Assembly: GCA_008690995.1 (NCBI GenBank)
Contig: VRMN01000003.1
Coordinates: 1,736,001-1,800,000, forward strand
From: Porphyridium purpureum
Lineage: Eukaryota > Rhodophyta > Bangiophyceae > Porphyridiales > Porphyridiaceae
Direction of reading: 5' to 3'
Length of the DNA stretch: 64,000 bases
Numbering within the stretch: position 1 is the stretch's first letter; every line of letters starts with the position of its first letter. The position numbers and the translations under genes were made by a program. Below the pieces are notes generated by a model that saw only the letters and a program-made list of their open reading frames with translations, was not told the origin of the DNA and made no database searches. This document shows positions 15,841 to 61,847 of the stretch, in pieces.

Positions 15841-15890
15841 GTACTGTGAGGAGGTACTGTGATTTAGTGTGGGTACAGTAGAAGTACAGT
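15841..15890 (+). promoter_or_regulatory. Cluster of four GTACWGT elements
   Basis: Two GTACTGT (15841, 15854) and two GTACAGT (15873, 15884) lie within 50 bases, ending 135 bases before the NOL10 start. Spacing is 13, 19 and 11 bases, so not a simple tandem repeat. Confidence 0.5.
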
Positions 15891-15967
15891 GATGGACGGA
15901 TGTGAGCGCAGAGGTCACGGCGGCTGCTTGGGTGGGACGAGGCGTGAAGGCAGGGTCTCAGGGTCTG

Positions 15968-16003
15968 CGTGTGTGTTTGTGTGCGTGTGTGTGTGTGTGT
16001 GTT
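15968..16003 (+). repeat. GT dinucleotide microsatellite in NOL10 leader
   Basis: Imperfect (GT)n just before the NOL10 ATG, probably within the 5' UTR. Confidence 0.8.
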
Positions 16004-16024
16004 TATACCTGTGGGTGAGACAAG

Positions 16025-18193
16025 ATGGTGCGTCGAGCGCATGGAACAGGGGATGTGGCGGTGTACGAGATAGCTTCGCGCGAGCGCACAGCAGTGCTGA
16101 ATCCTGCGAGTCGGAATGCGCGCGTGACCGAGTTGCAGAAGCGCCAGCTGCGAAAGCGCAACCTGCACGACTCGGATGTGGATATTCTGCAGGACTTGGA
16201 TTTCCCGACAGTGTGCAGCCGCGCCAAGCAGACGCGTGATGGGCAGTTCATGGGATGCGTCGGGACATACCCGCCGCAGATCCGCGTCTACGATTTTGCC
16301 CAGCTGTGCGTCAAGTTCCAACGGAATGTCGACGCCGAGGTCGTCGATTTTCAGTTCCTCACGGAGGACTGGAGAAAACTCGCCGTTCTTTGCGTGGACC
16401 GCACCCTCGAGTTTCACGCGCAATTTGGAACGTACTACAAACTGCGCATTCCAAAGTTTGGGCGCGACCTTGCTTTTCACCGCGGACAGGCCGACCTCTT
16501 TGTGTGTGGCGCAGGCCCAGAAGTGTGGAGACTGAATCTCGAACATGGACGCTTTTTTGCTCCATGGAGCAGCCAGTCTGGCATGCACAGCGGAAATAAT
16601 GTCATCGGACTGCACCCGTCTAATGGACTGCTCGCGCTTGGAGGCGATTCCGGCTTGCTCGAGATCTGGGACCCCCGGAGTTCGAGCCTGAAAGCGGCGG
16701 GCTTGCTTGACGTGCAAGCTGCCCTCCTTGAAAGCGACGCTTCGCTGCGCTTCGAAATGTCCGAACTGCTAGGGAAGCAGCGCGAGCTGTCAGGTCATTT
16801 TGCGGGCGTCACTGCCCTGCGCTTTAGTGAGGCCGAGGCGGCGACCATGGCGGTCGGGACGCGCTCGGGCCACAGCATGCTGTTCGACTTGCGCTCACCG
16901 CGCGCTCTTACGGTCAAAGAGCAGGGCTTTGACTCTCCAATTCGTACGTTGCGCTTTCTGAACCGCGAGCGCGTGTTAAGTGCCGACGTCAAATCCATCA
17001 AGGTGTGGGACCCTAAGCGGCCGGACGAGAACGTGCTCGCCTTGGAGCCCGCATTCGACGTAAACCAAGTGTGCGTCATTAGGAACAGCGGTGTGATGTT
17101 TGTCGCGGTTGAATCACCCAAGGTACAGGCATACTACGTGCCGGTTCTGGGGTTGGCGCCTGCATGGTGCTCCTTCCTGGACACCTTCACGGAAGAACTT
17201 GAAAACAACACCGCCGTCAATGCCGGCAGCGGCAGGACCGGGGCTTCGGCTTCGGCATCTTCCGTGTACGAAAACTTCAAATTTGTCTCTCGAGACGAGC
17301 TTGCGCAGCTGGGTGCTGAAAATCTGATCGGAAGCACCATGCTGAAACCTCACATGCACGGCTTTTTCATGAACATGCGATTGTATCGCAAGCTTCTTGA
17401 TGTATCGCAGCCGTTTGCGTACGAGCAGTACCGAAAACAGCGCATTCAGGAGAAGCTTGCACAGCAGCAAGAATCAAGGATTGCCAAAGTGGGGCGCAGG
17501 CAGCTGCTGTCCGGCACGCCCGCGGCGCACGAGACGGCGCGCGCAAACATTGAACTGTACAAAAAGAAGCTGCATGATGCCAAGGCAGATGCGAAGAGCA
17601 AGAAAGCCGGTCGAGCTGAAACTATGCTGCAGGACGAGCGTTTCGCAGCCCTGTTTGCCAACAAGGACTTTGAGATGAGTGTCGATGACCCGCGGTACAA
17701 GCATCTTAATCCGAGCGCTGCGTCTGCATCCCAAGCAAAGCACGCTGACCGTCGTCGCGCGCTTGAGGATGAAGATAGCGGTGTGGATGGAGGCAACAGT
17801 GACACAGACGACGAACCAGGCTCAGACCAACACGGCTTTGAGGGGGAGGACGGCACGGGGAGCCTGGACAGTAGTAGCAGTGATGGACTCGTCGCTCCAT
17901 TGTCAGACTCGGATAGTGATCATCAATTGCGCTCGAGGAAAGCGAATGAGCAAGCAGTTCGAGCCACTCGGGCAGAGGGCGCTCCACAGCAGAAAAGTTT
18001 GCGCCTGTATGAAGAGGAAAACGTGAGCGCAATTCCATTGTTCGGCGAGTCTCAGGCGCACAGGTCCGCCGAGCCGAGATCTGGGAACTTGAAAAGGAAT
18101 CAGCGCCAAGCGAAAATGGCGCACATGTCTCTTGGAGAACGTGTGCAGCACAGTGCGCGGAAGGGAGTGGGACGTCGGCGGAGTACAGGATGA
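16025..18193 (+). CDS. NOL10: NOL10/Enp2 nucleolar WD-repeat protein, 722 aa
   Basis: Small-subunit ribosome biogenesis factor of the nucleolus. The N-terminus carries the family features: LQKRQLRKRNLHDSDVDILQ, then QDLDFPTVCSRAKQTRDGQF and GTYPPQIRVYDF. WD-type blades follow, such as LGGDSGLLEIWDPR and GTRSGHSMLFDLRS, then the MRLYRKLLDVSQPF segment. A NUC153-type motif lies near 540-565 (LQDERFAALFANKDFEMSVD followed by YKHLNP). The C-terminus is acidic then basic. ATG 16025 follows a GT-rich leader. Convergent with the next gene, 80 bases between stops. Confidence 0.95.
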   Translation: MVRRAHGTGDVAVYEIASRERTAVLNPASRNARVTELQKRQLRKRNLHDSDVDILQDLDFPTVCSRAKQTRDGQFMGCVGTYPPQIRVYDFAQLCVKFQRNVDAEVVDFQFLTEDWRKLAVLCVDRTLEFHAQFGTYYKLRIPKFGRDLAFHRGQADLFVCGAGPEVWRLNLEHGRFFAPWSSQSGMHSGNNVIGLHPSNGLLALGGDSGLLEIWDPRSSSLKAAGLLDVQAALLESDASLRFEMSELLGKQRELSGHFAGVTALRFSEAEAATMAVGTRSGHSMLFDLRSPRALTVKEQGFDSPIRTLRFLNRERVLSADVKSIKVWDPKRPDENVLALEPAFDVNQVCVIRNSGVMFVAVESPKVQAYYVPVLGLAPAWCSFLDTFTEELENNTAVNAGSGRTGASASASSVYENFKFVSRDELAQLGAENLIGSTMLKPHMHGFFMNMRLYRKLLDVSQPFAYEQYRKQRIQEKLAQQQESRIAKVGRRQLLSGTPAAHETARANIELYKKKLHDAKADAKSKKAGRAETMLQDERFAALFANKDFEMSVDDPRYKHLNPSAASASQAKHADRRRALEDEDSGVDGGNSDTDDEPGSDQHGFEGEDGTGSLDSSSSDGLVAPLSDSDSDHQLRSRKANEQAVRATRAEGAPQQKSLRLYEEENVSAIPLFGESQAHRSAEPRSGNLKRNQRQAKMAHMSLGERVQHSARKGVGRRRSTG

Positions 18194-18273
18194 ACAAGAA
18201 TGAATGTGAAGCTGGAACATCTGACTCCATGGGCCAACCGCTTGAGCGCAATCGACGGTTTCTGGTCAATCCT

Positions 18274-19578
18274 TTACACGACTGCATCGCTGTCAAAATG
18301 TTGGACCCTTGGCTGCGATGCACGTAAACGCTTCGTGTGCACCAGGCAAACTGATAAAGCAATGACCGTGAGTGGGAGGAAGAGTGTATAAAATAAAATC
18401 AGACATACGAGCACGGGCCCGGACGAACGCAGAATGACCATGAAGAGTTCAGGCACTGTAACGCGGTTTTGATGTCGCATCCATACCTCATATGATTGGT
18501 CATCCGCTTCAGCTTTGGATGCTCTGTCCTGGCCGGCATCATAGAACAAATTATAAAGCCACCTTTTCAATCCATGAGCCAAAACGTCATGGGCCGTTGC
18601 GGCCAGCCGGGCAGCTTGTGTGTGCTCGACCCCTGTCGATGACAGAAAGAGCTTCTCAAGCACTTCGAAGTTCCGACTAACTTCATCAACTGATGCACTG
18701 CGTTTTAAGTGCAATGTTGCATACAGATTCGATTCTTCAATCTCGACAATGCGTCGCGATTCAGCGCTGGTAGATAATCCCGGCCATGCTATTGTGAATT
18801 CTTGGAATGCAGCCGCGGGCTCGACTGGTACCGCTACTTCTGCTCTTGACTGTGGTGCAACCGTTGGCCTAGGAGGATGATGGACAGAAACTTGCTCGCC
18901 TACCATGCCATCATCCGACTGTCTGCGTCCTGGCAGCGGCTCGCTCGTTTGCCGTTGCACTTCTGTAGGGTGGGTCTGATGCGCCGCTAAAAGTGCCACG
19001 TTCGATTTCTCGTTCACTTCATTTCCCTGTGGATGCTCTGATCGTTTGAGCGATTCCGTCAGCTCCTCCCTCTGCCGCTGCCTTTCCCCTTCCATGCGCA
19101 CCGACTCGGCCAAGGCCTGGGCAGTTTGGAGGCCCTCCACTAGCACGGGGTCGCTTGGGCATCGACGAAGGCCCATCTCGTACACTGCAGTCGCCTCGCC
19201 ATACTGCCGTCTCTCCAAAAACACTTGGGCCTTTCTCCACCAGCCCTTGGGCCAGGTCGGGTCTATTTGGGTGCACAGCACTGCGTCGAGCTCTGCACAC
19301 GCGCACGCACCGAGCTTCAGATACGCGGCAGATCGATTACTGTGCAGAATGAGCGCCAACTGGGTTGGTTCAGCAAGCGGCGCGCTGCCATCTCTTGCAT
19401 TCGCGCTGGGTGACGCTTGTCTTGTAAGCGCCCAGTCGCGCAACTCGCAGTCGAGGCCACGCGTGTAACACGCGATTGCATCACAATGCTGAGCGGCCGA
19501 GAAGTGCCGGTTTCCCTGCTCTTTCCAGTCGAGCGCACTCCAGCGTTCCATCGCTACTCCGTCCGCGTGTCCGTTCAT
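18274..19578 (-). CDS. TPR protein with degenerate J-like domain and C-terminal membrane anchor, 434 aa
   Basis: N-terminal TPR block (about residues 15-150) with the classic start WKEQGNRHFSAAQHCDAIAC, then LILHSNRSAAYLKLGACACA and KGWWRKAQVFLERRQYGEAT. A charged linker follows. A J-domain-like segment (about 270-345) starts NLYATLHLKRSASVDEVSRN and ends AHDVLAHGLKRWLYNLFYD, but no HPD tripeptide is present, so it should not stimulate Hsp70 in the normal way. One or two hydrophobic segments (about 375-410) precede a short basic tail. Probably a tail-anchored or membrane-associated co-chaperone-like scaffold; exact role unknown. Divergent from the SNF2 gene, sharing its promoter region. Confidence 0.75.
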   Translation of the reverse strand: MNGHADGVAMERWSALDWKEQGNRHFSAAQHCDAIACYTRGLDCELRDWALTRQASPSANARDGSAPLAEPTQLALILHSNRSAAYLKLGACACAELDAVLCTQIDPTWPKGWWRKAQVFLERRQYGEATAVYEMGLRRCPSDPVLVEGLQTAQALAESVRMEGERQRQREELTESLKRSEHPQGNEVNEKSNVALLAAHQTHPTEVQRQTSEPLPGRRQSDDGMVGEQVSVHHPPRPTVAPQSRAEVAVPVEPAAAFQEFTIAWPGLSTSAESRRIVEIEESNLYATLHLKRSASVDEVSRNFEVLEKLFLSSTGVEHTQAARLAATAHDVLAHGLKRWLYNLFYDAGQDRASKAEADDQSYEVWMRHQNRVTVPELFMVILRSSGPVLVCLILFYTLFLPLTVIALSVCLVHTKRLRASQPRVQHFDSDAVV

Positions 19579-19652: not shown

Positions 19653-19729
19653 ACTGTACCACTTCACAGTACTCCTAAAGATGGAGTACAGTAAGTGTAC
19701 TCAATGGTACAGTGTCCCGTGGACTGTAC
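19653..19729. promoter_or_regulatory. Cluster of GTACAGT-type elements upstream of SNF2 gene
   Basis: Copies at 19653 (reverse), 19666 (ACAGTAC variant), 19686, 19707 and 19723 (reverse), with a partial GTACTGG at about 19736. Both orientations are mixed, at 13-21 base spacing. Confidence 0.5.
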
Positions 19730-19757
19730 CTCTGAGTACTGGGTTCGAAACAAAAAA

Positions 19758-19839: not shown

Positions 19840-21909
19840 ATGACGCCGAACCTTGAGGAGCCTGTGCGCGGCGACGCCGAAAATGCGCAAGCGTCTGTGG
19901 ATGGTAAGGCCGGGGAATCGGCCGGCGGAAACGCCATGTATGAGAAGCTGGACGCGCTGTTGAACAAGGTGGCCGTTTACTCGCAATTTCTGGCGGAGAG
20001 ACTGGAGGATCGCATTCAGCTGGATCGGATCGAGGAGAAGGAGGCTGAGGAGGAGACGAAGCATGCCGGGAAGCGCAAGCGGGTAGGGGATGGAAAGGAC
20101 GCGGCACAAAGCAAGCGGCGTGCGAAGGAAGAAGAGAAAGTCGAGCAGGCGTGCGAGGCGTCGGCGGTGCCTCGTTTTGTCCAGCCGCGCCTTTTACAAA
20201 ATGTGACGCTGCACCCGTATCAGCTGACTGGTGTGGAGTGGCTTGTTTCGCTGTACGAGAACGGACTGAATGGGATGCTTTGTGACGAGATGGGCTTGGG
20301 CAAGACGGTACAAGCCATTGGACTGCTCTGTTACCTGAGACAAATGGGTGTCAACGGTCCGTTCTTGGTATGCGCACCACTCACAGTGCTCCCAAATTGG
20401 AGCAACGAAGTGCGTCGCTTCGCTCCGTCTCTCAACTTCGTGCAGTATCATGGCACAAAGACGGATCGCACGGCGAAGTGGAACTCGATTCTCCGTCACA
20501 ATAAGCCAACTGATGAGAAATTTCCTCTCATCTTGACAACTTACGAAATTTTGATGAGAGATCGCGCGCGGCTCGCCAAAGTCCCCTGGCAGTACGTAAT
20601 AGTCGATGAGGGCCATCGTATGAAGAACATGAACTGCAAATTCGTTTCCGAGATTAGCAAATTTCGCAGCGCAAATCGCTTGATTTTGACCGGCACACCG
20701 CTACAAAACAATCTTCTGGAGCTTTTCAGCCTTCTGCATTTTATTCTTCCTGACATTTTTGACAGTGTCTCGGCGTTTACAAGCTGGTTTGATTTTGACG
20801 AAATGGATAACATCGGTGAGGAGGCCATCGAGCGAGAGAGACAGAATCAGCTTGTCAGCAAGCTGCACTTTGTCCTTCGTCCTTTTGTCCTGAGACGCAT
20901 GAAGCGCGACGTTGCGCAGAATCTTCCGCGCAGGAAGGAAATCCTCCTGTACTGCAGACTGACTGAGCTCCAGAGCAAGTATTACGAGGCTGCTCTCAAG
21001 GGTACACTGGGCGACCTCATCGAGGGCGCACGCGGGGGGCTTGTTGCGGGTAAGCAAAACAAGGGACTCATGAATCAGCTCATGCAGGTGCGCAAGGCTT
21101 GCTGTCATCCGTTTCTGTTTGAAGAGCAAGAAACACAGTGGGGCACGACGGATGAGCGAATAGTCACCGCGTCCGGTAAGCTTGAACTTCTTGATCGTCT
21201 CCTGCCACGCCTGCAGCGCGCTGGCCACCGCGTTTTGCTCTACTCGCAGTTCACATCGGTGCTTGACATTCTGGAAGATTTCTTGCAACTACGCCAATTT
21301 GGCACAGTGTGCCGCATTGATGGCGACGTGGGTTTGGAGAGCAGAATCGAGCAGATGAAAAACTTCAACGGCGCCGACCCACGGACCGCTGCTTTTGTGT
21401 TTCTGCTGAGCACGAGGGCCGGCGGACTGGGCATCAATCTGGTTGCTGCTGACACCGTAATATTCTTTGACTCTGACCTCAACCCGCAAATGGATCTACA
21501 AGCCATGGACCGGGCGCACAGAATTGGCCAAAAGCGCCCCGTGCATGTGTACCGATTAATCACCCGAAACACAATTGAAGAAAAGCTGCTCGAGATTGCT
21601 GGCCGAAAGCGAACGCTTGAGCACTTGGTCGTAGCAAAAGGTGGCTTCCATCGGGCTCCGCGGGAAGAACAAGACAATGATGCGTTCAAAGATGGGGTTC
21701 ATTTGAAGCCCACTGACCTCCGAGATTTGCTCGCGTTTAACCCGGTCGAGTTTGAGGCCGGCAAGAGTTCGGCCGGTTTGATTCAGGATACCGAACTGGA
21801 TGTGCTTTTAGACCGTTCTGACATGATGAAGGGCGCCCAAGACGAAGTCAAAGATAGTGGGCTGGTGAAGACATCCGCGTTTGTTTCATTTGAGCACGTA
21901 GTTCGGTAG
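19840..21909 (+). CDS. SNF2-family chromatin remodeller, DDM1/LSH (HELLS) type, 689 aa
   Basis: ATP-dependent nucleosome remodeller whose relatives maintain DNA methylation and heterochromatin. Helicase motifs in order: DEMGLGKTVQAIGLL (I, near residue 148), VDEGHRMKN (II, near 255), LTGTPLQNNLLELF (III, near 284), LLSTRAGGLGINLV (V, near 523) and MDRAHRIGQKRPVHVYR (VI, near 556). The N-terminal KLDALLNKVAVYSQFLAERL helix is typical of LSH/DDM1, followed by a basic linker. I chose ATG 19840; an in-frame ATG at 19681 would add 53 residues but lies in the promoter element cluster. Its stop is 73 bases from the convergent fumarase stop. Confidence 0.92.
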   Translation: MTPNLEEPVRGDAENAQASVDGKAGESAGGNAMYEKLDALLNKVAVYSQFLAERLEDRIQLDRIEEKEAEEETKHAGKRKRVGDGKDAAQSKRRAKEEEKVEQACEASAVPRFVQPRLLQNVTLHPYQLTGVEWLVSLYENGLNGMLCDEMGLGKTVQAIGLLCYLRQMGVNGPFLVCAPLTVLPNWSNEVRRFAPSLNFVQYHGTKTDRTAKWNSILRHNKPTDEKFPLILTTYEILMRDRARLAKVPWQYVIVDEGHRMKNMNCKFVSEISKFRSANRLILTGTPLQNNLLELFSLLHFILPDIFDSVSAFTSWFDFDEMDNIGEEAIERERQNQLVSKLHFVLRPFVLRRMKRDVAQNLPRRKEILLYCRLTELQSKYYEAALKGTLGDLIEGARGGLVAGKQNKGLMNQLMQVRKACCHPFLFEEQETQWGTTDERIVTASGKLELLDRLLPRLQRAGHRVLLYSQFTSVLDILEDFLQLRQFGTVCRIDGDVGLESRIEQMKNFNGADPRTAAFVFLLSTRAGGLGINLVAADTVIFFDSDLNPQMDLQAMDRAHRIGQKRPVHVYRLITRNTIEEKLLEIAGRKRTLEHLVVAKGGFHRAPREEQDNDAFKDGVHLKPTDLRDLLAFNPVEFEAGKSSAGLIQDTELDVLLDRSDMMKGAQDEVKDSGLVKTSAFVSFEHVVR

Positions 21910-29782: not shown

Positions 29783-30497
29783 CTTACAATCTCCACACAC
29801 TCTGAACACGCTCGTCCCTCCCACCCCTTTTCCTTCAAATCGCCCTTACCACACCCTTTCTCTTTCTCGCCCTCTGGTGTCCGTCTTCCCCTGTCACCCT
29901 CCGCACCTTCATCACTCTTCCTTCCTGCTCTCATATTCTCTCACACAAGGACATCATGACCACCGCTATCAACAATAATCCCATCCCCAATTTTCCGGGG
30001 CTTTTATCTCCTCTCTAAGAAAACACACTCGTCTTACTAGACGATGTCGTCGAGATTAGGTTTACCTCCGGGAGGGTTTTTTGGTTTTTTTTTGGTTTTT
30101 TGGTTTGGATGTCTTTCGATAGTCGGAGGTACATGTCACAGTACACCCTTGAACGTGTTCTGCAGAGGTACTGTTCGGTCATGGGTTTCGAGGTGGGTGG
30201 TTAAACCCTGGTTCTAACCAATGCTTCGCGCGAGCAGTTAGATTCAGGGTTGGTGGCTGGGTTGGTTTGGAGTTGGAGGACTGTACCTGAGTACGTGGAA
30301 GATGGAGCGCAGATGTGCGTTGGGACTTGAGGTTGACATGTGTGGGAGTGGACATCTGGAGCATTGAGGCTATCTGGAGCGTCGAGGCGGTCGGCTTGGG
30401 GAAGGCAACGGATGTGCCACTGTGGAAGGAAAGGTCGCAGACAAAAGCGGGTCTGGTAGCGCGAGAAGATTTGCGTCCGAACGGACAGAAAGTAGGA
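29783..30497. promoter_or_regulatory. Divergent promoter: thylakoid-type gene and plastid SDR gene
   Basis: About 715 bases. C/T-rich near 29820-29950, a mixed T/G run (30074-30108), and GTACWGT elements at 30138, 30168 and 30280. Both flanking genes encode predicted plastid proteins. Confidence 0.5.
30138..30286. promoter_or_regulatory. Three GTACWGT elements upstream of SDR gene
   Basis: ACAGTAC at 30138-30144, GTACTGT at 30168-30174 and ACTGTAC at 30280-30286, 212-360 bases before the SDR start. Confidence 0.45.
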
Positions 30498-33461: not shown

Positions 33462-33612
33462 TCATGACATTGCAATATGCATTGCGCACAACTGTACTTT
33501 GTCAAAACCTCAAAAACCAAGATTTACCGACTCCGGTGGAGGGGAAAGGTGGAGAACAAACGCTCCACGGATTCTTAGCTCTGGGCGATTCGGACAATAC
33601 TCAGGCCACGAA

Positions 33613-34689
33613 ATGTTGCGATACTTAAGGCAAGAAGGAGTATCGACATCCACTAATGGCTTTTGCGAAGGAGAAATCGCCTACAATGCCTCGTCTAACG
33701 CGACTCAAAGCGCGGTGCTCGGCCTACGCGCCGCTGAGCGTGAAATCGACGCGCTCGAGCATGACATTGACGCGCTGTGGAGTATGTCCTCGCCGTACGT
33801 GGGGATAGAAGTGATCGCGCAGGAAACTAGACCTGGTGCGGATAGCTTTGAGCCACCGCGTGCGCGGGCGGAGAAGAGGGCAGCGCTGTTGGCCCAGGTT
33901 CAGAGAGCGTCTGTAAAATTCCAGGATATATTCATTCAGCTTGAACAGGGAGTAGAAGTGCGTGTAGAGCCCAGAATCGCGGAGGCGCAAGAGCGTTTAA
34001 TGTTGTCCGAAACATTACAATGGAAACGAATAGCCATGCAAGGTATGAGCCGTTGTTTTGTCTTGGAGACGAGACTTTCGCTTGCGACAGCCGCTCTGAA
34101 TACGCTGGAACGGCTTGAGGAACTTGAGCTGCAGGTCAAGAAAATAGAGAGAAGTCTGGAGGAAGTCAAGTCCACGGACTCGCAATCGCAGGCTGACATA
34201 GTATCCATGGCTGGATTTCGCGCGTCTTTGAGCGGCGTGCTTGACCAGTTGGACCAAATGAGTCTGTATCGGACCGAGAATACGGACGATGTCGCCCGGT
34301 ATTTGGTCGCGGAGCGCAAGCGCCGGCTGGTGCGAACCGTGCTTTTCATTTTTGAAACAGAGTTGGAGAACGGGCATGTGAAACGTAGGGTCGAGGAAGC
34401 ATTTTCATTGCCCGCTGCAACGCGCAAGGACGAGGAAGAAGAGCCTATTTCGCGCACTTGCTGTATTTGCGAAGACGAGGGAATGTTGCTCTCAGCGCCT
34501 TGTCGCCATATGTGTTGCAAGGAATGCTGGCTTGAGTGGCTGTCACGGTCAAAGACCTGTCCACTATGTCGTCAGTATGTGCATCCGATGCTTCTGCAGG
34601 ATCGCTTGCGCAAGGAAGAAACGCAGGCACATGCCGACAAGGTCGACTTGCATCGGTGGCGGAAGCAAATGAAAAAAATGACCAACTAG
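33613..34689 (+). CDS. Coiled-coil RING-finger protein (probable E3 ligase), 358 aa
   Basis: Residues 30-260 are mostly helical with Leu/Glu-rich coiled coil (for example LNTLERLEELELQVKKIERS). A C3HC4 RING follows at about 281-320: CCICEDEGMLLSAPCRHMCC, then KECWLEWLSRSKTCPLCRQY. A short basic tail ends the protein. The ATG at 33613 is the first in frame; an ACTGTAC element is at 33491-33497, 116 bases upstream. Target unknown. Confidence 0.8.
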   Translation: MLRYLRQEGVSTSTNGFCEGEIAYNASSNATQSAVLGLRAAEREIDALEHDIDALWSMSSPYVGIEVIAQETRPGADSFEPPRARAEKRAALLAQVQRASVKFQDIFIQLEQGVEVRVEPRIAEAQERLMLSETLQWKRIAMQGMSRCFVLETRLSLATAALNTLERLEELELQVKKIERSLEEVKSTDSQSQADIVSMAGFRASLSGVLDQLDQMSLYRTENTDDVARYLVAERKRRLVRTVLFIFETELENGHVKRRVEEAFSLPAATRKDEEEEPISRTCCICEDEGMLLSAPCRHMCCKECWLEWLSRSKTCPLCRQYVHPMLLQDRLRKEETQAHADKVDLHRWRKQMKKMTN

Positions 34690-38305: not shown

Positions 38306-38697
38306 CTCTGCCCGACTCCACCTTCCTTCCCTCCCGCCTCTTCACTCCTCACCGCACCCCCTGAAGTCTCCTGCCGCGCAACGCCGGCTCGTTCTTCTCC
38401 TTTTTATGCTAGTCATGTCGCGCTGTACCGCTCTAACTGTACTTCTGGAGTCCTTTGTGTACTGTGGGTGTACATGTGTGTGTTTTTATAAGGGACGAGA
38501 ATCGCTGAAATCGTTTTGTGCAGGGATAAGAAGATGATCGCGATGGCGACATGCTGGCACGGTATGTTTGTAGGTAGATGAGTCGATTTGATAGGAATGA
38601 TGATGGCGTAAGTTTAAAAAGTCTGCGCGGGGAAGAAGAGTTCGGACTTCGAGAGGGAGAGAGGAACTTGTCTTGAAGGTGGGAAGAGGAAAAGAGA

Positions 38698-39715: not shown

Positions 39716-40004
39716 TAAATAAGCCAGCATGTATCGTGACTTATTCGCTCCGCCGTCTGAGGAACAGTGGAAGCCATCCATTCGCTCTTGCGACCGGAGC
39801 AAGCTGTCAAGAGGCCACGGGCATCCCGTTTGATTGCTATGAAGAATGTGAGAAACTCGAAGAGCCATCACGCTGACTTGCAGTTCGACGAGGGTTTCAA
39901 GCCAAAGCAGCAGCATCGGCGGAGAGCGCACCATCCGCGTGCGTCGTATGGCACAATCGGTCTTTGATTTACTGTACATGACCCTTATTTTGCTCCGAAC
40001 TGCA

Positions 40005-46434: not shown

Positions 46435-48732
46435 AAGCGCCGCAAGACGGTTTCAATTGCAGACGCGTTTTCAAGCTGTCGGAACGGAGCATGCAAAAAG
46501 TTCTCTGGCTGGTATGCGAATTTTTTTTGGACTTGATGCGGCCGCTCAGCGCATCCATGGCGACTTGCTCCGGTCAAGGCGCTTGGCGCAGGTACGCTCT
46601 TTATTTCTTTTAGTCAATTATTTGTCTCTGCTCGTGTCCATATGAAATCCGAGCTTTTCCGTCCCGCCATCCCTAGCCTTCCGTGCCGTTTGCGGCTCTT
46701 GTTTCGACTCTAGCGTTGCGCATCGTGACACGTAGATTTGGGCTTCGAATTGTAAATGCGATGAGAAAGGTCTCGTATTCATTTAACATCTTCTGCGGGC
46801 GACTAAGCGTCATCCACCATTCGGGAGTAGACATCCGACACTCAGCAGCACAATGCCACTCTGGCCACACATGTTGGCAAGAGCAGGTCGGTAATTGCAA
46901 GTATGCTTGGCTGCAGAGCGGAGTCCTGGCCCCTGCCTATGGCATTTAATCAGAAGTCAAAATGTTTGTTGTGGCACCCACCGCGCAAGGCAGCAGAGCG
47001 GATCAATTGTTGCTCTTGTAGCACGGTCGAGCGAGAGAATGAGTCGCATTGTCATTTAGTGCTCGCAGGCAACGCAAGCACGGCAGCCGACGTATGGTGC
47101 TCGCGCTCGTGTTTGTCTGCGGAGAATGGGTCTTTGAGGGTATTTTTGCCGGTTGCTAAGGTTCAGAGTCTAATGTCTGAAAGGCCAACGCCTGATTTGA
47201 CAGGAATGCCAAGAATACACAGCAAGAGAAAAGAAAGGTCGATCAAGTGCATGGTTTTTCCATACGAAGCTGGACACTGATGCGGACAAAGGTCGTCCGG
47301 ACGGAAAAGGAACAGGAAAGCGAGAAAACACTCTTAGAAGAGGTGTAATCGGTCGCAAAGGAAAAGCCGTGGCGGTTGGCCGAGGACATTCTGGAGACTA
47401 TTGCCGGAAGTTTTTGGGACCACCAGGCTTTTATGTCGCCTGGTTGGGCGACCGTGTGCAAAGAAATGACACCAATGGACTGTGAAATGAATGAGCTAAA
47501 GTGTATGGGTGCGAGCTGGGCAGGTAGGCAATTCGAAGACCCCGTTTCGCGCCACGTACGACCAGAGGAACTCACGAACAGGAGGAGCGACTTTGACGTG
47601 CTGGCAAAATCATCATCGAGATCAGTATGGCGGATATCAAGCCATCGGATGATACCCAGGCTCGTGAACTCATGCTGGTCCGGGTAAGACAATCAGTGCC
47701 AGCGGACGTCACCGCTTCTTTCTCCACTGACATCACCAAAGACTCGCGCCTCATCAAGCTCATTCGACGCAAAATTCAAGTGCCGAGCATCCTTGGTCTG
47801 AATACGATGATGACCGATGCAGACAAAGCACGGAAGCGCATCGGCTGTCTTCGCGTGCGCGAAGTTTCAACAAAAACATGAGAAGAAGATCGCTCGAGCA
47901 CTCCAGACCTTCGAACAGCAGGATTAAAGAACGCCGACTGCCGGCGTCAAAACAAGACAGGGCAGGCACACAAGCCGGAGACCCTCCACGCCTACGTGCT
48001 TGAACTGCGAGATTATGCAGGTTATATGCTTCAGGAAGCCATTGCGCTTACCACAAAAATGTTTGCCTTGGTCAGGTTGGCGTGTTGTCATCTGCGGATT
48101 CTGTAAATTTGAAAGGCTGCATGATGAAACAACAGAACGATTCTCCGCGGTTCGCTTGCATCGCTACATCCTGCCATCTCCGCTCTCCTTCATTCTGATG
48201 AACACATTCGGCGCCCCATCGAGGGAGATTTTCGCGCCGCCTTCAGAGGAGGACTGTCGCTTCATTCTTATCGAGACGCTGACCGCTGGGAAAGGCTCCA
48301 AGCGGGCAAAAGGGGAGCTTGCGGTATTCTTGCGGCGTGCAGTTTACCATAGAAGGTTGCCTTACGCTCGCCATGAACCGCACTCCCCCACACAAAGTTC
48401 CGACATCACACATCACTTGGCTCTTTCTCAAATGCGAGCATGCGAAAGACGCGGGCGCCCTGGCACATTGACGATCGTAAAGATGGGCATTTTGGATATG
48501 CAGCGACGCCTACAGTCTGACGAGGTGCTGTTCCACCTGAGTAACATGGTGCTTGTGACTATCTTTGCCGTCAGTCAACGCCAAGCGTGCTTGCCGATAG
48601 CACGTTGCAATGCGCCATGAGCGATTCTGCAGAGGTACATCAGTATAATTGATGTCGATGCGCGCCTAAACATACTCTGGAGTCCGCACATGTAAGTAAA
48701 TCCACCGTTGTCTCTCCTCGAGAAGGGTGGGA

Positions 48733-49679
48733 TTACGGCTGTACTGGTACTGCTTTCACAACCGCCGAATGCGCACATTTGGGCGCAGGAATCCAGGTGT
48801 CGCCAAGGTCGCTCAGATGCTTCACAAACTGCTCGCTATTGCAAATGTCCGTCGACCCATACAAGACTGGTCGTCCTGGCTTCAAACGGTCTCTGATATT
48901 CTGCTTCTCGACATACTTTCCTCCGCCCTTGATAAACAAAATTGCGCCCCTGAACGGCGTACGAGCGTGCTCCCTGGATGTCGAGTCCATGGCGGGCGCA
49001 CGGTTGTGCTGCCACCAGGTGAGTTGGGGTCAAAGAAACGAAAGTCACGAGTCAGCTCACTCTGCTTGTTCTTGAAAAGAGCATCTAGCATGCGCGAGGC
49101 CGCGAGTGCCTTGTCTTCCTCAATGATCAGCTTGCTAAAGTCTGCATTATCTGTGTCAGTCCATTGACATCATGCTATACAACGGATGATCTGACGCTCT
49201 CCAACTGGAACGGCGCTTTCGGCTGCAATGAGCCGCGCTGGATTGGCGCAGTGCGCGCGGCTTTCAGCACGGATGTCAGTGCAGCGATTCTCTTCATGTG
49301 GTCTATCGCGGTCACATCCGTACATTCCTTGATCGCTAAGGTCGTCCTCAACTCACCGACTGCCGCGCGAGACTCCTCCGCCTGCAGAATGGAATGGATG
49401 AGCAGCAGCCGCAGCTTGTCCAGAAGCCAGCCTTCGCCGACAATCATGCGCTCGAAAACCGCTGCCGTGGCTACCGATTTGGAGCTTCTACCTGAAAGTA
49501 CCCTTGGTGCCACCCTGCGCTTCTACGGTTCCGGCAACCGCATGAGCGGCGCCAGAATATCGCGTCCATTCTCGTCACACACTAGCACGTTCCAGACCTG
49601 TGACTGCTGCTGTCGATGATGATGCGGGTCCCTGGTACTCCCATTACTCTCTGCACACGCAACCTCATCATCTTCACTC
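48733..49679 (-). pseudogene. SLY1/SCFD1 (Sec1/Munc18 family) remnant
   Basis: Pieces of the ER-Golgi SNARE regulator Sly1 appear in correct order but in different frames: QVWNVLVCDENGRDILAPLM (49530-49600, near the Sly1 N-terminus), then WLLDKLRLLLIHSILQAEES (49350-49430), then NKQSELTRDFRFFDPNSPG (about 49010-49070), then RGAILFIKGGGKYVEKQNIR and VLYGSTDICNSEQFVKHLSD (48760-48955, the Sly1 C-terminus). The central 300 or so residues of the family, expected between the first two pieces, are absent, because only about 100 bases separate them. Frame changes occur at least twice. A TTTGTTTAG acceptor precedes the first piece, so some breaks could be introns, but the missing core argues for a dead copy. 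Confidence 0.65.
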
Positions 49680-50665
49680 TAAACAAAGAACGGCCGATCC
49701 AAGGCTGCACGCTGAGTAACGCATGCCGAGAATTCTCGCGACTCAGCTGTCGACTCTCTCCGAGCGCGTCCTACCCCATCGCGCACTCCATCTGACACAC
49801 AATCCACGAGCCGGACCTTTACTATTCCTTTCCCCCGTGGGCACGGAAATATGTCTACAGCTGCGACCCATAGAACGCGTTGGTTCTTGATATCGAAGGC
49901 ACGCCCGGCCTGCTTTGCACCGACTCGCGGCGGTCTGGAGGAGTGTTGCGTACGCACGTTTCCGCACGTGCATCAGATGAAGAGCGCCTGACGCGGTCCT
50001 GGACGTTAGCAATCATCAATCAGCATGCCGCCTTGGACCGAGAGCAAAATGTGGTCCATGCCCGACCGCGACACGAGTGCAGGGGATACCGGCACATTCT
50101 TTGCCTGTACAGCTTCTGTTCGTACCATTGACGTCCGAGCAGCAGATCCAAAGGCATCGGCAAAACTTCTGCGCTCCTGCCGCGCAACACCGACGTGCAC
50201 AGCGTTCACATACTGCAGAAGACCACTCCTAGACATACTTGAACGCACACCTTCCGTTCCGCCACTATTCCTTACCAGCAACGATCCCGCGCGGTACAAG
50301 CGCATACATCTCGCGCCCAACATGGTCGCTCGCATTTGGCACGATCTCTGCCTGTGAGAATGTAGTGATACAAATGCACGCGCTCTGCGTGTATTCACGA
50401 TTCTGTGCGCACGCGCGCTTGGAACTGGTCTGTCGAGGAACTGGAGGCGTCGATCAATACACGCGAACAAGCCAAGCTGGGTAGAGCAGCGTCGATCCAG
50501 AACTGCTCTCGCGCCTCCACACCAGCTTGTCCTGCTTCCTCGTGCACACGGGCGACGCGCTCGCAACAGCCGTAAGTGATTTTCCTATAAAAACAACTCG
50601 TTTACCCATGTAGAACTTCCAAATAACTAGAACGCGTCGTTTGGCCATGGAATGGCGAGAGAGAA

Positions 50666-50721
50666 GTACAGTGTGAATGGAGGTACAGTTAATGTACAGT
50701 GCAGTGAGAATAAGGTACAGT
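50666..50721 (+). promoter_or_regulatory. Cluster of four GTACAGT elements
   Basis: Exact copies at 50666, 50683, 50694 and 50715, all in the same orientation, starting 5 bases beyond the TMEM62-like stop. The last sits in GTACAGTGATGTC, identical to the copy at 5435. Confidence 0.5.
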
Positions 50722-50725
50722 GATG

Positions 50726-52723
50726 TCATTTCGCCTTGGTGGTGTGGTGATTGGCGGCTGCGAGCCATGCGAGTGCCAGGGAATGGAGCGCCATGCCCAC
50801 AACCGCGATGCTGCCGGTGACCAGAGGCGAAGCGGCGCAGCTTGCAACTCCGTAAGCGCCGCAAAACTCCCGCACGAGCGCCCAGGTGCTGCGCAACGCA
50901 AGCAGCGCGAGCGTGACTGAAATCACGCGTCGCAGCGTATGGCTGGCACCTTTTTGAAGCCCGCGCTCGATGGGCATGCGGGTGCAGAGCCAAAGACTCG
51001 GGAAGTAGCCCCCGGCTAGCCAAAATAAAACATGTAAATGAATGTCAAAGCGCGCATGCACGAGCCGCCCCGGTTCAGGCGAAAATGTGCCGTACAAGGT
51101 GACCAGGTGTTGACCGATATGTTCTCCGTCCAGCATGTGTGGGACAATAAGAAGCGGTCCACAAGCTAGCACGAGAGTAAAGACCACCAAGAATAGCCGG
51201 ACGCGGCGACCTACGGCCGACGGAGCATACTCAGAAGCACGTAGGGACAGAACGAGTACCCCTAATCCCGCAAACAGACAAAAGTAGCAGAGCTGCACAA
51301 AGACGCGTACGAAGTTGGAATACAAAAGAAAGTGATGAAACCCATGCACCAGCTGCTCAACGTGGGACATACCAATGTCATTTCCACAATCTGAAAAGCA
51401 CACTTGTACGGTGCTGTCTCGTACAATCAACGTGAGCCTGCCTCGCGGGTACTTGGTCGGCTCGACGACGAGCGTGTAAATTGCGTAAGGATTGGATTCA
51501 GAGAGTATCGCTTGCCCGATGTACTCATCTTCTTGGCCAGGTGCTTGGATAAACACTTCTAGTTCAGCTTCCGCAAGCTCTTCACTCGAGAGAGGATGAA
51601 TCACAGAAATGCGAACAGAAACAAGATGGCGCTCTCCGTCGCCGACGGGATCCTCAACGTGTGCAAACATGCATGTTTCACGAAGCTGGCAAAGAACATA
51701 TTGCCACATGCCACCACGCCATATCAGGATGCGATACATTTCCTGGAGCCAAACGCTGGGTGCCTCCATCTCTTCCTGGTACTGCAGTTCCTGCGTTGTC
51801 ACCTCAAAAGCTGGAGATGTGCACAAACGCCTTGTTTGTGCACGCATACCGTTAGGGGCTATCCCAAGAAGCGAATGCAAATGCCCGGACAATCGAATGT
51901 CGACGTCTAGTTTCATGAATCGCTCGCGCGCGTCGCTGCTATCGAAAGACAAGATGCTCGGCGGAAAATGGGACAAAAGAACAATCGATGCGATATCGAC
52001 TTCAACATGATCTTCTGCGACGCCTTTCGCCACGAAATGGCCACTCCTTGCGCGATTAACGAGCTCTTCTAGTTCGCGTAAGGTCTCGGTCTCTACGTGG
52101 CCGAAAAAATTGAGTGGCGCATGGAATCCTGGGTCTGCGGGTGCGTGAAGGGCTATCATCAAGAAATGCGTATTGTCACTCGCAGACATGATACGATAGT
52201 GAAGCCGTCGTGAAGTGCTGGTCGCCGCCGGCTCATTCGTAGCGTATCTAGAGAAGAAATCGGTGTCTGACATCCAGTGAGGCACGCCGAGGCTATCATG
52301 GTTTCCACGCGCTTCCAGCACGTTGTGCAAACGCTTGCGCAACGCCACATACTGCATCCATTCTGCCTCATCTTGATGCGATCGCTTACCCAGCACGCCT
52401 GGCCACCGAAGCGGGAGCGCTTTCGCGTTCACCAGATCCCCGCCAAGCAGCACGCCAGTCGGCTGGATTCTCTGTGAACACAAATCGACCAGATCACGAA
52501 AATTACGTATTGAGAGCCCACCATCCAACTCATGTGACTGAATATGCAAGTCTGTTGCATGAACAAACATCGCGCTCGCGTGCCGCTGAACAAGGCGACG
52601 TCTGCACTGGCCGGAACGCTCGAGTGACAACGGACGGTTCACGAACAAGATGAGCAGCACTCCCACGGCCATCAATGTGGCAAAGACGAGCTCATGCTGG
52701 AACCCGGCGGCTCGAAGGCCCAT
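50726..52723 (-). CDS. TMEM62-like membrane metallophosphoesterase, 665 aa
   Basis: Calcineurin-like phosphoesterase domain facing the lumen or outside, followed by a membrane region, the layout of TMEM62. An N-terminal hydrophobic helix (about 11-29) acts as signal anchor. Metal-site motifs are complete: FVHATDLHIQ (DxH), GVLLGGDLVNA (GD), EARGNHDS (GNHD), IVLLSHFPPS and RLSGHLHS (GHxH). The C-terminal 200 residues have about six hydrophobic segments. The first ATG in frame is 52721-52723. Substrate unknown. Confidence 0.85.
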   Translation of the reverse strand: MGLRAAGFQHELVFATLMAVGVLLILFVNRPLSLERSGQCRRRLVQRHASAMFVHATDLHIQSHELDGGLSIRNFRDLVDLCSQRIQPTGVLLGGDLVNAKALPLRWPGVLGKRSHQDEAEWMQYVALRKRLHNVLEARGNHDSLGVPHWMSDTDFFSRYATNEPAATSTSRRLHYRIMSASDNTHFLMIALHAPADPGFHAPLNFFGHVETETLRELEELVNRARSGHFVAKGVAEDHVEVDIASIVLLSHFPPSILSFDSSDARERFMKLDVDIRLSGHLHSLLGIAPNGMRAQTRRLCTSPAFEVTTQELQYQEEMEAPSVWLQEMYRILIWRGGMWQYVLCQLRETCMFAHVEDPVGDGERHLVSVRISVIHPLSSEELAEAELEVFIQAPGQEDEYIGQAILSESNPYAIYTLVVEPTKYPRGRLTLIVRDSTVQVCFSDCGNDIGMSHVEQLVHGFHHFLLYSNFVRVFVQLCYFCLFAGLGVLVLSLRASEYAPSAVGRRVRLFLVVFTLVLACGPLLIVPHMLDGEHIGQHLVTLYGTFSPEPGRLVHARFDIHLHVLFWLAGGYFPSLWLCTRMPIERGLQKGASHTLRRVISVTLALLALRSTWALVREFCGAYGVASCAASPLVTGSIAVVGMALHSLALAWLAAANHHTTKAK

Positions 52724-57842: not shown

Positions 57843-58202
57843 AAAATCAGCGGCACTAACTGTACACTACCAATTTAGCCCCCTTCCCTCTCTTCGTGGT
57901 CCACTTTACTGAATCACCGTACTCACTCTTAATAAAACAGACCTAAAAAATGAAGAAGTATTTTTCGACGAGAAAGTGCGATGTGGAGCACTGTACGTTT
58001 ACTGAACTCGCCGACGGCGCTCAGGGCTGCTCGGGAACTTGCAAATCTCACGCCATTGCGTCCGCTGTGCGAATGTGGGCGTGTGTGGCAAGACGACGCG
58101 CACGGCTAGACTTTGAAGGTGAAGGGTTGGGTGGGTGGGTGAACAGAAGTTTGTGTAGGCATACATAGAGATAGAGCGCGCGTTGGTTCAACGAGAAGCG
58201 CA
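57843..58202. promoter_or_regulatory. Intergenic, upstream of SGNH gene
   Basis: 360 bases with two ACTGTAC elements (57859-57865 and 57990-57996) and a polyadenylation-like AATAAA for GT92. Confidence 0.5.
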
Positions 58203-59675
58203 ATGCGCGGCGACGTGGAAAGCGATGCGCTGCTTGGCAAGCCGTGCGGACAGGACGGAAATGCGGCTGGCACGAGTGGAGCGCGCGGTGAGTGTGTGAG
58301 CCGCGATGGCCCCGCGCGCGCGCGAGTGCTGGGCGTCGTCGTGTTGTTCCTGATGCTGCTGGGTTGCGCAGTGATTGCACTCGCGGTGACGTCTGTGACG
58401 ACGCGTCTCCCGCATTGGCGCACGCGCGAGCAGCTGCAGAGGCTCCCGGATTTGTGGGAAGAATTAGACGCTCGCGTCAAGTCCTCCGGCTCCGGTAGCT
58501 ACGAGGTCCGCGACACGTACGCACTAGGCAATTTGCTGCGATCCGGGTACGTGCGCGTCGATGGACGCTTTTTGTACGACAATTGGCGCGGCATTCTCTT
58601 TGATTTCGTCGGCGTGCAACTGACGTTTCATGTCATGCACGCGTCGCGAATTCTGTTTCGCTTCAATGAAGGCGGCTCTGCATACTACACTGTGTTTGCA
58701 GAGCCGAGCTCGAAATGCAGGGGCGATTATCGCGCCTCTCACAAAACGGCATTTCTGCAGAATCAGGATACACTCGCCATTTCGCTCGATGTCCTCGACG
58801 GGAAGTATGTCGGTCGCTGCATGTACACCATCCGTCTTGTGAAGGAGACGGAACCTTTTCAGATGCCCTTCTTCCCAAATGCCTCTGTGTCGCGTCCCAT
58901 CGCACGGCTAGATTCCATTCAGCTGGAAAGCAGGACCGCGAAAGATCGCCAGGGAAAGACCTTCCGTGCGCGGCTCTTTCGGCACCAAGAATCAAAACAT
59001 GCGCGGCGCCTGTTGGTCATTGGAGATTCAGAGTCGGCTGGGTTTTGTGATGATGGCCCTCGCCACATGAGCCAGGACCGATACGGACAATGGAGAGAAT
59101 TTTCGCGCTTCTCCGACTCGTGGGTGTACAAGCTCGTGACTTCACTTCGTTGGGAATACGATATCGTGGCAGTGTCTGGCCGCGGCGTGGTGCGCAACTT
59201 TTATGAATCAGGGCCGTACAGCGCTGCACGGGAAGTCATGTCCTCTTTCGTCAGCCGCGCTCTGCAATCTGTCCCGGGAAGCCACGAGCGCGACGTGCCG
59301 TTTTTGAGAAAGCCGGACATTGTCATCATTTTTCTTGGTTGCAACGACTTTTTTGACGCTGCGCAGGACTTGGACTCGGTTGTCAACGTCCGCGGCTTTG
59401 AAGGCGGCCTGCAGTCTCTTGCGACAAAGTACGCAAAGGCGGGTATAAAGCTTTTCATGCTGTGCGGTGGCTATACAGATGATCGCCAAGCACCGTGTGG
59501 CCCTGTCAGCCGCGTGTGCAATAGCCTGGACAGCAGCGGCTCCGATTGCACATTTTTATACATGCCTCGAAGTCTTGTGCCGTACCCGCAATACGAAGCG
59601 TGTGCCGCACACGTGAATTCGGAGGGACAGGATATCATCGCTCAGTATGTCGCGAGTGCAATGGACGATCTGTGA
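58203..59675 (+). CDS. SGNH/GDSL carbohydrate esterase, CE2-like, membrane-anchored, 490 aa
   Basis: Signal-anchor helix at about residues 42-65 (VLGVVVLFLMLLGCAVIALA). A beta-sandwich-like domain follows with YVRVDGRFLYDNWRGILFDF, as in family CE2 acetyl esterases, then the SGNH domain: catalytic Ser in LLVIGDSESAGF, Gly in VAVSGRGVVRN, Asn in VIIFLGCNDFFDA, and His in the CAAHVNSEGQDI segment near the C-terminus. Predicted to remove (or add) acyl groups on glycans in the Golgi or outside the cell. It directly follows the GT92 gene in the same orientation. Confidence 0.85.
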   Translation: MRGDVESDALLGKPCGQDGNAAGTSGARGECVSRDGPARARVLGVVVLFLMLLGCAVIALAVTSVTTRLPHWRTREQLQRLPDLWEELDARVKSSGSGSYEVRDTYALGNLLRSGYVRVDGRFLYDNWRGILFDFVGVQLTFHVMHASRILFRFNEGGSAYYTVFAEPSSKCRGDYRASHKTAFLQNQDTLAISLDVLDGKYVGRCMYTIRLVKETEPFQMPFFPNASVSRPIARLDSIQLESRTAKDRQGKTFRARLFRHQESKHARRLLVIGDSESAGFCDDGPRHMSQDRYGQWREFSRFSDSWVYKLVTSLRWEYDIVAVSGRGVVRNFYESGPYSAAREVMSSFVSRALQSVPGSHERDVPFLRKPDIVIIFLGCNDFFDAAQDLDSVVNVRGFEGGLQSLATKYAKAGIKLFMLCGGYTDDRQAPCGPVSRVCNSLDSSGSDCTFLYMPRSLVPYPQYEACAAHVNSEGQDIIAQYVASAMDDL

Positions 59676-59980
59676 CTTTTGCATTGGGTCCATTGTTTGG
59701 ACATGCCTGCGTTTTGTTTTCGTTTTTTGGGGCTCTTCTTGAGCGATCGGTGAATTAGGTAAATACAGGTAGGAATTGCCAAGGACTTATGGAATGCCCC
59801 TTTTGGATTGAGTGAAGCACTTTCCAGCGCGATGGACGCTGAGAAGTGGCCAGTCGTGCAACCCCCTGGAAAGAAGTAAAGTACTACAGTGCACGTGACG
59901 CGGATGATACGCGCACAAAGAAAATGCTTGCAACTGTACTGAGAGCGTTTTCTACTTTTTTGGCCACTTTTCGCTTTCAA
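59676..59980. other. Intergenic, convergent 3' ends
   Basis: 305 bases between the SGNH and TraB-like stops, with one ACTGTAC at 59933-59939 and T-rich patches. No gene seen. Confidence 0.5.
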
Positions 59981-60874
59981 TCATGGCCCCAAGCTCTTCG
60001 ATGCACCTGCGATGGGTAAAAATGTTGAATGTGAATCGAGCTCTCTCCATGCACGTTCGATTCCGTCCATATGTGCCATCCCGACGACAGCAACCACGCG
60101 GCCACGCGCTCCTTGCAGTTGTTTAGCCATGAACTCGTCTCTCTCATCCAGGAGCGCGCGCGTGACGTTGGGGTAGCTATCGCGCATAGACTGAACTATT
60201 GTCCGAACGAATGGTCGATCCAGCTCTCTTTCGCCCTCGATTCCCTCAAGTACCCTTTTGATCTCGGGAAAGGGGGTTTCTCGGTCGGACCATGCGTGCG
60301 GCGTGAGCATGTTGATAAGGATTTTATCCAAGTCCTTAAGGCCAGCCTTGAGGAGCGCGCGCACGATGTCATCCTGCTCCTTGTCAAAATATACCACGTC
60401 GCAGCCCTGAATGCGTTCCGCTTCCTTGATTGCTTCGAGCAGCTCACTGCCAGGCAAGACGTTAAGCTTGCTAAAGATCTCAGTTGCTTTCTCGATTACT
60501 CCAGGAAGCTTGTTCATGTGGTCCGCTTGCCCAAATGGCAGATCCATTTTGCCGATCTCCTTCAAGATGGACGCCAGAAACCCCTCCTGGGGCTTCTCCT
60601 TTCCAACCCTTTCGCGCATGATGTTTGCGCGGTTGCGGTCCAGCTCCACGTAGACCTCATTCGGCTGCACAACACGGATCAAGTCCGACACGGCGCGCGT
60701 GCTCCCTTTACCAAGATGAATCGTGCCAATCAAGTACAGCTCTGCGCCCGTCCGGAGGGACCTCACGACAACTGGGTTCGTGTCTGACAGCTGAATGTTC
60801 TGCGCACCAATTGAACTTGCAGTACTCGACGCCGCGCGGACTCCACCCAGCGCTCTCCACAACAGCTGCCGCAT
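59981..60874 (-). CDS. TraB/PrgY-family protein, probably mitochondrial, 297 aa
   Basis: TraB-domain protein related to human TRABD, which acts at the mitochondrial outer membrane. Motifs: ELYLIGTIHLGKGSTRAVSD near the N-terminus, NEVYVELDRNR, and VVAVVGMAHMDGIERAWREL near the C-terminus (the two GxxH elements of the fold). The chosen ATG (60872-60874) gives MRQLLWRALGGVRAASSTAS, a good mitochondrial presequence. The frame is open upstream without an ATG. Confidence 0.88.
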   Translation of the reverse strand: MRQLLWRALGGVRAASSTASSIGAQNIQLSDTNPVVVRSLRTGAELYLIGTIHLGKGSTRAVSDLIRVVQPNEVYVELDRNRANIMRERVGKEKPQEGFLASILKEIGKMDLPFGQADHMNKLPGVIEKATEIFSKLNVLPGSELLEAIKEAERIQGCDVVYFDKEQDDIVRALLKAGLKDLDKILINMLTPHAWSDRETPFPEIKRVLEGIEGERELDRPFVRTIVQSMRDSYPNVTRALLDERDEFMAKQLQGARGRVVAVVGMAHMDGIERAWRELDSHSTFLPIAGASKSLGP

Positions 60875-61847
60875 CTTGCTCCACTCACCAATTCCCTGTC
60901 CACTCCTGGTCCTCCCGTCTGTTTCTCTCCACCTTCTCTCCACCTTCTCTCCTGTTCACCACGATCAGCCTGCGCATTCGTTCTGTCGCCTAACTTTCAC
61001 AGTACCGCATTTGTGTTCTGCCAAACTGTACTTCCCCAAAACCCTACTCATTCTGGAGCTACTTACACGTCCGATGTGATCTTTGGCGCAGTGTAAGGAA
61101 CGTCGAAACTGTGGCTCCGAACGTGCGACCCTGGCACGATTTTTGTCGTAGAAACTATAAATAAGACGGGAGCGAGCGCGGGCGTCGTCATGTGCCAACT
61201 CGCACATGGCGCAACCCTCGGCGGGCGTGGGAGGGAGGGATACAAGTACAGTGTGAGGAGAACGTAGGTACAGTAAATGCATGGACTCATCAAATTCGCT
61301 TTTGTGGAACGCCGGACAATCACAAGCATCACGATGATGATGTAGATGTAAATGGTGTCATATTCTGTGGATGTGGGAGTTGCATGTGAATGAGGCCTTT
61401 TGTATAGTAAAAGGGCACTGGGAGAATCGATGCCGCGTGTAATTAACTGCGGAAGGGGTTGGTTTGGCGGGCTGATGGGTTGATCGGGAAGAAAGGAGGG
61501 GACGAGAGCGAGGGAAAGCGTGCGAGAGGGTCAGGGACGGGGAGGGAGAGGAAGAGGGAGAGGGAGAGGGCGAGGGCGAGATAGGGGGGTTGGTTGAGGT
61601 GAGACGTCACAGGGGCTTGGATGGGATCAGGGACTGGCGCGTGATTGCGGTGGTGGGGTGTGTGTGTGTGTATGTGTGTGGTGTGGTGTGGAACGACGCG
61701 GGGGGAAAGATAGCGGCGCGCGTGTTTTAGGAACGTGGTGGACGGTCGTCCGAGCGTGTTCTCGCCTGCTGCATGCGCGGCGGAGTGGGGCGTGTGAGCG
61801 GCCGTGTGTGAGGGCAGAGGACGTGGGTGTCTGGTGGGGACGGGGAA
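60875..61847. promoter_or_regulatory. Divergent promoter: TraB-like and bZIP genes
   Basis: About 1 kb. GTACWGT elements at 60999, 61025, 61246 and 61268; an AT-richer stretch around 61310-61440; GA-rich from 61490 to 61580 and GT-rich from 61657 to 61690 on the plus strand ahead of the bZIP gene. No gene seen. Confidence 0.55.

Follow-up and report, generated by a model that had tools for sequence, protein, structure and literature searches.

GTACAGT, a word enriched and clustered upstream of Porphyridium purpureum genes, as the probable binding site of an abundant promoter factor

Homotypic clusters, in which several binding sites for a transcription factor are grouped in one promoter, are a general concept in gene regulation, and the general regulatory factors Reb1, Abf1 and Rap1 of yeast offer a related case, their sites mostly numbering one or two per promoter. 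The SBP-domain copper response element of green algae is built on a GTAC core, and the plant telobox has the sequence AAACCCTAA. To our knowledge, little has been established about the cis-regulatory code of red algae, and among the papers listed in a literature search no title or opening lines of an abstract described the word considered here, GTACAGT, or a comparable promoter grammar in that group. We analysed GTACAGT in a 64-kb stretch of the red alga Porphyridium purpureum (assembly GCA_008690995.1, contig VRMN01000003.1, C2:1736001-1800000; hereafter the window) and in the genome to which it belongs (22.16 Mb in 46 contigs). The first-pass annotation of the window had picked out this word as a short intergenic element clustered upstream of genes and had left its nature open between a transcription-factor site, a core promoter element, a UGUA-type 3'-end signal and a short dispersed repeat. 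The GC content of the window is 55.5%; an excerpt of PMC10866757 gives 55.5% for the species and describes its genome as extremely intron-poor.

Our principal proposal is that GTACAGT, in the extended form RDGTACAGTK, is probably the binding site of one abundant sequence-specific factor and is arranged in homotypic promoter clusters. Statistics were gathered on a 264-kb sample made up of the window and 200 kb of contig C1, in which 127 open frames were called by hexamer score and the 115 scoring at least 25 were kept as genes; 7-mers were counted separately in the non-coding (90 kb) and coding (172 kb) parts. GTACAGT ranks first among 8141 non-coding 7-mers, above microsatellite words, with 79 copies against 7.4 expected under an order-2 Markov model of the 90 kb of non-coding DNA. 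This amounts to about 1.5 copies per 18 kb, close to the figure of about two given at first. Coding DNA of the sample contains 16 copies, the non-coding density being 8.9 times higher, and 200 letter permutations of the word reach a non-coding mean of 8.0 and a maximum of 48. Genome-wide there are 6320 copies in 22.16 Mb, versus 3088 of the reversed word, a lower average density than that of the sample (95 in 264 kb). Genome-wide counts, coding density and shuffled words had all been named in the first-pass annotation as ways to check the excess, and each of them confirmed it.

The sequence preference reaches slightly beyond the seven letters. In the flanks of the 95 sample copies (coding copies included), C occupies position -1 in 4% and G or T position +7 in 77%, and the preference fades two to three bases beyond the word. 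Words with a single mismatch are 4.7 times as dense within 60 bp of exact copies as elsewhere in non-coding DNA, the leading near variants (at least five near copies) being GTACACT, GTTCAGT and GTACTGT. Taken alone, GTACTGT is much weaker than GTACAGT (16 non-coding and 11 coding copies in the sample, rank 207); since variants are denser beside exact copies and GTACTGT is among the leaders, it probably represents the same site in a weaker form. GTTCAGT is enriched in the non-coding DNA of the sample (32 non-coding and 14 coding copies) but is genome-wide rarer than its reversed word (2568 versus 3766). The GTAC core itself would fit recognition by an SBP-domain factor of the kind that acts in the green-algal copper response, but the specificity extends past GTAC, as GTACAGA, GTACCGT and GTACATT are not enriched in the non-coding DNA of the sample, and the genome gave no match to PF03110 at E 0.001, in a search whose positive control was also silent. 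We regard an SBP-domain reader as extremely unlikely.

The copies are also placed non-randomly with respect to genes. The zone from 250 to 100 bp before the ATG holds 33 of 83 non-coding copies while making up 12.9 of 90.6 kb (14%; p ~1e-8), and for this zone GTACAGT has the lowest p-value among all tested 7-mers. Both results take the SNF2 gene of the window to start at 19840, an assignment made in this analysis; before that start was moved, the zone count was 29 of 79. Within 400 bp upstream, 29 copies lie on the same strand as the gene and 28 on the opposite strand. A positional preference near gene starts, which the first-pass annotation had suggested looking for, is thus present, and the strand bias it had also raised is absent upstream. 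Extending the search to 800 bp, and stopping at the neighbouring gene, 38 of the 115 genes have the word upstream and 23 have at least two copies, although a copy in a divergent spacer may be counted for both flanking genes.

Because the zone 100 to 250 bp before the ATG is where transcription starts may lie, and AACCCTA peaks there too, GTACAGT might serve as a core promoter element and fix where transcription starts, in the manner of a TATA box or an initiator. It is, however, found on both strands without preference, often in several copies per promoter, is spread from 0 to more than 600 bp from the ATG, and lies within 400 bp of only 32 of the 115 genes, and a core element of this kind is improbable. 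Divergent spacers hold 1.54 copies per kb, tandem ones 0.78 and convergent ones 0.49. Among spacers shorter than 600 bp, the convergent ones contain 2 sites in 5.3 kb versus 19 in 11.5 kb for tandem and divergent spacers together (rate test, p = 0.02); counted by the presence of a site, the same spacers give 2 of 23 versus 10 of 43 (p = 0.19). These figures bear on the suggestion that 3' of stop codons the word acts in RNA, as ACUGUAC, in a UGUA-type 3'-end or stability signal. Sense ACTGTAC is indeed present at 7 of the 8 gene loci that have a site within 60 bp past the stop, but this reaches only p = 0.07, the loci being too few to settle whether the word has a further role in RNA, and for 4 of these 7 loci the start of the following gene is no more than 400 bp from the site. 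As short convergent spacers, where two 3' ends meet, are poor in sites, a 3' signal is likewise improbable as a general account. A role in organising chromatin or DNA replication, rather than transcription, would suit the thousands of sites, their clusters and the functional mixture of the genes concerned, but fits poorly with the promoter-zone bias and with the low density in short convergent spacers, and is highly improbable.

The copies are clustered as well. Adjacent non-coding copies within 60 bp of each other form 26 pairs in the sample, whereas 500 simulations gave 3.9 such pairs on average and never more than 11. Across the genome, same-strand pairs 7-37 bp apart number 890, where independent placement predicts about 28 and the reversed word gives 10; the corresponding numbers are 245, about 14 and 4 for facing (convergent) pairs and 303, about 14 and 1 for back-to-back (divergent) pairs. 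Pair geometry was read from the first 100 same-strand, 50 facing and 50 back-to-back pairs listed, all non-overlapping. Among the 100 same-strand pairs no starts are 7-8 bp apart and 9 bp is the commonest distance (17 pairs). Facing words are separated by 3-5 bp in 22 of the 50 listed and none abut, and in all 50 listed back-to-back pairs (41 without repeated strings) at least 5 bp lie between the words. Such spacing fits a protein whose footprint begins about two bases ahead of the word and hardly extends beyond its end, and the flank bias falls at the same places.

The reading as a transcription-factor site is thus supported by the enrichment in the promoter zone, the balanced orientation, the homotypic clusters with their degenerate copies and the spacing rules, and from these we infer that a protein binds the word, that one factor serves all sites and that its binding activates. 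The putative factor would cover about 9 bp and bind in either orientation, at homotypic clusters lying mostly 100-250 bp (up to about 600 bp) before the start codons of numerous genes with no relation to one another. Strong or cooperative occupancy would follow from neighbouring copies, which perhaps share one face of the helix, and an occupied cluster would switch the promoter on or hold it in the active state.

The copies might also be what is left of dispersed or tandem repeats, given that the word is present in a pair of long terminal repeats (LTRs), at six places with identical end strings and in an 11-bp minisatellite on contig C22. When the 95 sample sites were compared with 100-bp flanks, however, only 4 non-neighbour flank pairs matched at E 1e-3; most of the 100 same-strand pairs listed have linkers unlike one another, and the base preference is lost so close to the word. 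Some genome copies do lie in repeats, but for most sampled copies a repeat origin is quite improbable. The LTRs belong to an element at C2:1250966-1257680 that has frames for reverse transcriptase, RNase H and integrase; its end repeats are identical, direct and 280 bp long (L021 466-745 and 6901-7180, L-numbered coordinates here and below, as for L011, L024, L025 and L034, referring to separate pieces of genome sequence), and each contains a back-to-back pair of GTACAGT. A further copy of the 280-bp repeat is found on C1 with 98.6% identity. LTRs carrying host promoter sites would be expected if GTACAGT works in promoters. Elsewhere, identical GTACAGT pairs 6 to 8 kb apart resemble the LTR case. 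The minisatellite (C22:397220-397402) consists of about 17 copies of 11-bp units, mostly GTACAGTGGAT. At the six places mentioned, L024 894-1243 and others on C9, C12, C14 (two) and C18, identical GTACAGT-bearing strings face inwards at an end-to-end distance of about 350 bp.

The 23 sample genes with at least two upstream copies were scanned against Pfam, some of them only in their larger part where a piece border divided the gene. Eighteen have a family, of mixed functions that include RFC, HSP90, MRE11, DEAD helicase, chorismate synthase, DapB, YbeY, TspO, NOL10 and others; site-free genes were annotated for comparison in the retroelement region and the window only. Genes with a copy within 400 bp have a higher codon score per codon (0.277 for 32 genes versus 0.221 for 83, p = 0.001, retrotransposon frames included), and the difference in GC content at third codon positions has p = 0.07. 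At L025 691-757, four GTACAGT exactly 20 bp apart stand directly before a frame with a Brix domain, a domain of the ribosome biogenesis type. Eight of ten genome matches to chlorophyll-binding genes were examined, and six have GTACAGT no more than 600 bp from the first likely ATG; of the other two, one has a copy at about 860 bp and one has none. This count is not strictly comparable with the 38 of 115 sample genes and is offered as a lead only. Two chlorophyll-binding (antenna) proteins of the genome have mature parts identical to chains of PDB 7Y5E over 172 and 169 residues, an entry that excerpts of PMC12083527 and PMC11169493 identify as a Porphyridium purpureum structure. Together with the GC content, this identity makes P. 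purpureum the most likely source of the genome.

Within the window GTACAGT occurs 23 times on the two strands, 12 plus and 11 minus. All 22 starts given in the first-pass annotation are exact, and one further copy, at 17554, had been overlooked; it falls within the NOL10 frame (16025-18193) and is an exception to the statement that no copy is coding. GTACTGT had been put at about seven copies and is present eight times: those at 15841, 15854, 19666, 30138, 30168, 38459 and 60999 either lie outside the gene calls or belong to the stretch that is likely upstream of SNF2, and that at 13133 is inside a MARCHF6-like frame (11498-15115). As first described, clusters precede NOL10 (16025), SNF2 (likely start 19840) and the SDR gene (30498), while the fourth, at 50666-50721, adjoins a gene end. 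The longest SNF2 open frame (ATG at 19486) spans the 19653-19723 cluster; because the coding score climbs only from about ATG 19840 or 19936, the cluster is most likely upstream DNA. The occurrences are as follows.

5435-5441, plus strand: single GTACAGT, 416 bp upstream of the histidine phosphatase family frame 3870-5018 on the minus strand.
15505-15511, plus strand: GTACAGT in the divergent spacer between the MARCHF6-like gene and NOL10.
15841-15890, plus strand: cluster of GTACTGT (15841, 15854) and GTACAGT (15873, 15884), with ends 134-177 bp before NOL10 (16025).
17554-17560, minus strand: GTACAGT within the NOL10 frame.
19653-19729, both strands: cluster of GTACAGT at 19653 (minus), 19686 (plus), 19707 (plus) and 19723 (minus) with GTACTGT at 19666 (minus), about 110-180 bp before the likely SNF2 start at 19840.
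30138-30286, both strands: GTACTGT at 30138 (minus) and 30168 (plus) and, 211 bp upstream of the SDR gene (30498), GTACAGT at 30280 (minus).
33491-33497, minus strand: GTACAGT that follows a stop by 29 bp and precedes the RING gene at 33613 by 115 bp.
38436-38465, both strands: GTACAGT at 38436 (minus) and GTACTGT at 38459 (plus) in the divergent spacer between CIAPIN1 and an RPN11-like gene.
39971-39977, minus strand: single GTACAGT, 255 bp past the RPN11-like stop.
50666-50721, plus strand: four GTACAGT at 50666, 50683, 50694 and 50715 (spacings 17, 11 and 21), all 4-53 bp beyond the stop codon of a metallophosphatase gene on the minus strand (50726-52723).
57859-57996, minus strand: GTACAGT at 57859 and 57990, 337 and 206 bp upstream of the frame 58203-59675.
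59933-59939, minus strand: GTACAGT in a 305-bp convergent spacer.
60999-61031, minus strand: GTACTGT at 60999 and GTACAGT at 61025, upstream of the TraB-family gene 59981-60874 (minus).
61246-61274, plus strand: pair of GTACAGT 22 bp apart in the divergent spacer before the frame 61848-63683.

RNA family and tRNA scans of the window found none, nor did an RNA family scan of pieces L001-L015. The stretch 47168-49731 of the window is a decayed relative (67-79% identity in pieces) of an S41 peptidase and Sec1 gene pair, which has long open frames at C2:910382-914082 (L034); this relative makes up part of the 4.3 kb to the left of the 50.7-kb cluster.

Several observations weigh against a promoter-bound factor as the explanation of GTACAGT. 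Most non-coding copies (50 of 83) lie outside the zone from 250 to 100 bp before the ATG, and the fraction of genes with a copy within 400 bp upstream, 32 of 115, is low; these positions come from gene models that are open-frame calls without transcript ends and are measured to the ATG, not to the transcription start. Long convergent spacers contain 11 sites, four in the 50.7-kb cluster, two at C1:232.6 kb and five at C1:364-380 kb, a region with retroelement frames and an LTR copy in it or adjoining. The strongest cluster of the window, that at 50.7 kb, follows a stop, and a search of 4.3 kb for a gene to its left found no frame with a good coding score. Local duplication generates some clusters. 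The 23 site-bearing genes have no evident functional class in common, and we claim no regulon. Overlapping copies also exist, of which a strict 9-bp footprint could not fill both together: ACTGTACAGT, a palindrome of two copies back to back, occurs once in the sample (L011 7692-7701, between the HSP90 and fibrillin genes), and GTACAGTACAGT lies inside one listed match, the pair patterns used for spacing being unable to count such overlaps. Their existence slightly reduces our confidence, also in the broader formulation given below. Finally, pair distances bear on helical phasing. Raw counts give 210 pairs at 20-22 bp versus 49 at 15-17 bp, the former inflated by repeats and by the 11-bp minisatellite; when each repeat is counted a single time, by hand, for one and the same set of contigs, the numbers are 68 versus 32 (one-sided p = 0.0002), for windows that were picked after the first listings and with some 20-22 bp pairs enclosing a third copy. 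For 137 of the listed spacings, the Rayleigh test gave no significant result at periods of 9.5-11.5 (p = 0.06-0.19). With windows chosen post hoc and this non-significant test, the excess at 20-22 bp suggests helical phasing of neighbouring GTACAGT but does not prove it.

A broader formulation can be put forward only tentatively, namely that helically arranged, homotypic GTACAGT clusters allow a general promoter factor specific to this lineage to mark about one promoter in three, and that LTR retrotransposons may have taken up its sites. According to an excerpt of PMC10866757, Porphyridium can be transformed with episomal reporter plasmids. With one word standing above every other non-coding 7-mer of the sample, and with a clear geometry, promoter control in this lineage becomes directly testable.

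GTACAGT can be set beside the four systems with which we began. It shares its GTAC core with the green-algal SBP element but has a specificity of 7 to 9 bp, and the genome gave no SBP match in a search with a silent control; no connection with copper genes came to light, no search having been aimed at one. The plant telobox is, like GTACAGT, a short promoter word, and AACCCTA is enriched in the same zone of this genome; the sequences differ, and clustering was examined for GTACAGT only. This telobox-like word has 15 of its 24 non-coding sample copies between 250 and 100 bp before the ATG, and 8 of the 115 genes have both words within 400 bp (Fisher p = 0.03). Sites for Reb1, Abf1 and Rap1 are similarly abundant in promoters, independent of orientation and attached to functionally mixed genes, whereas clusters are common for GTACAGT. 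As for homotypic clusters, 6320 exact copies in 22 Mb are a lot for a single regulon and the binding factor is here a putative one, but the likeness extends to several copies of a short word, degenerate neighbours, either orientation, a minimum spacing and a location upstream of genes.

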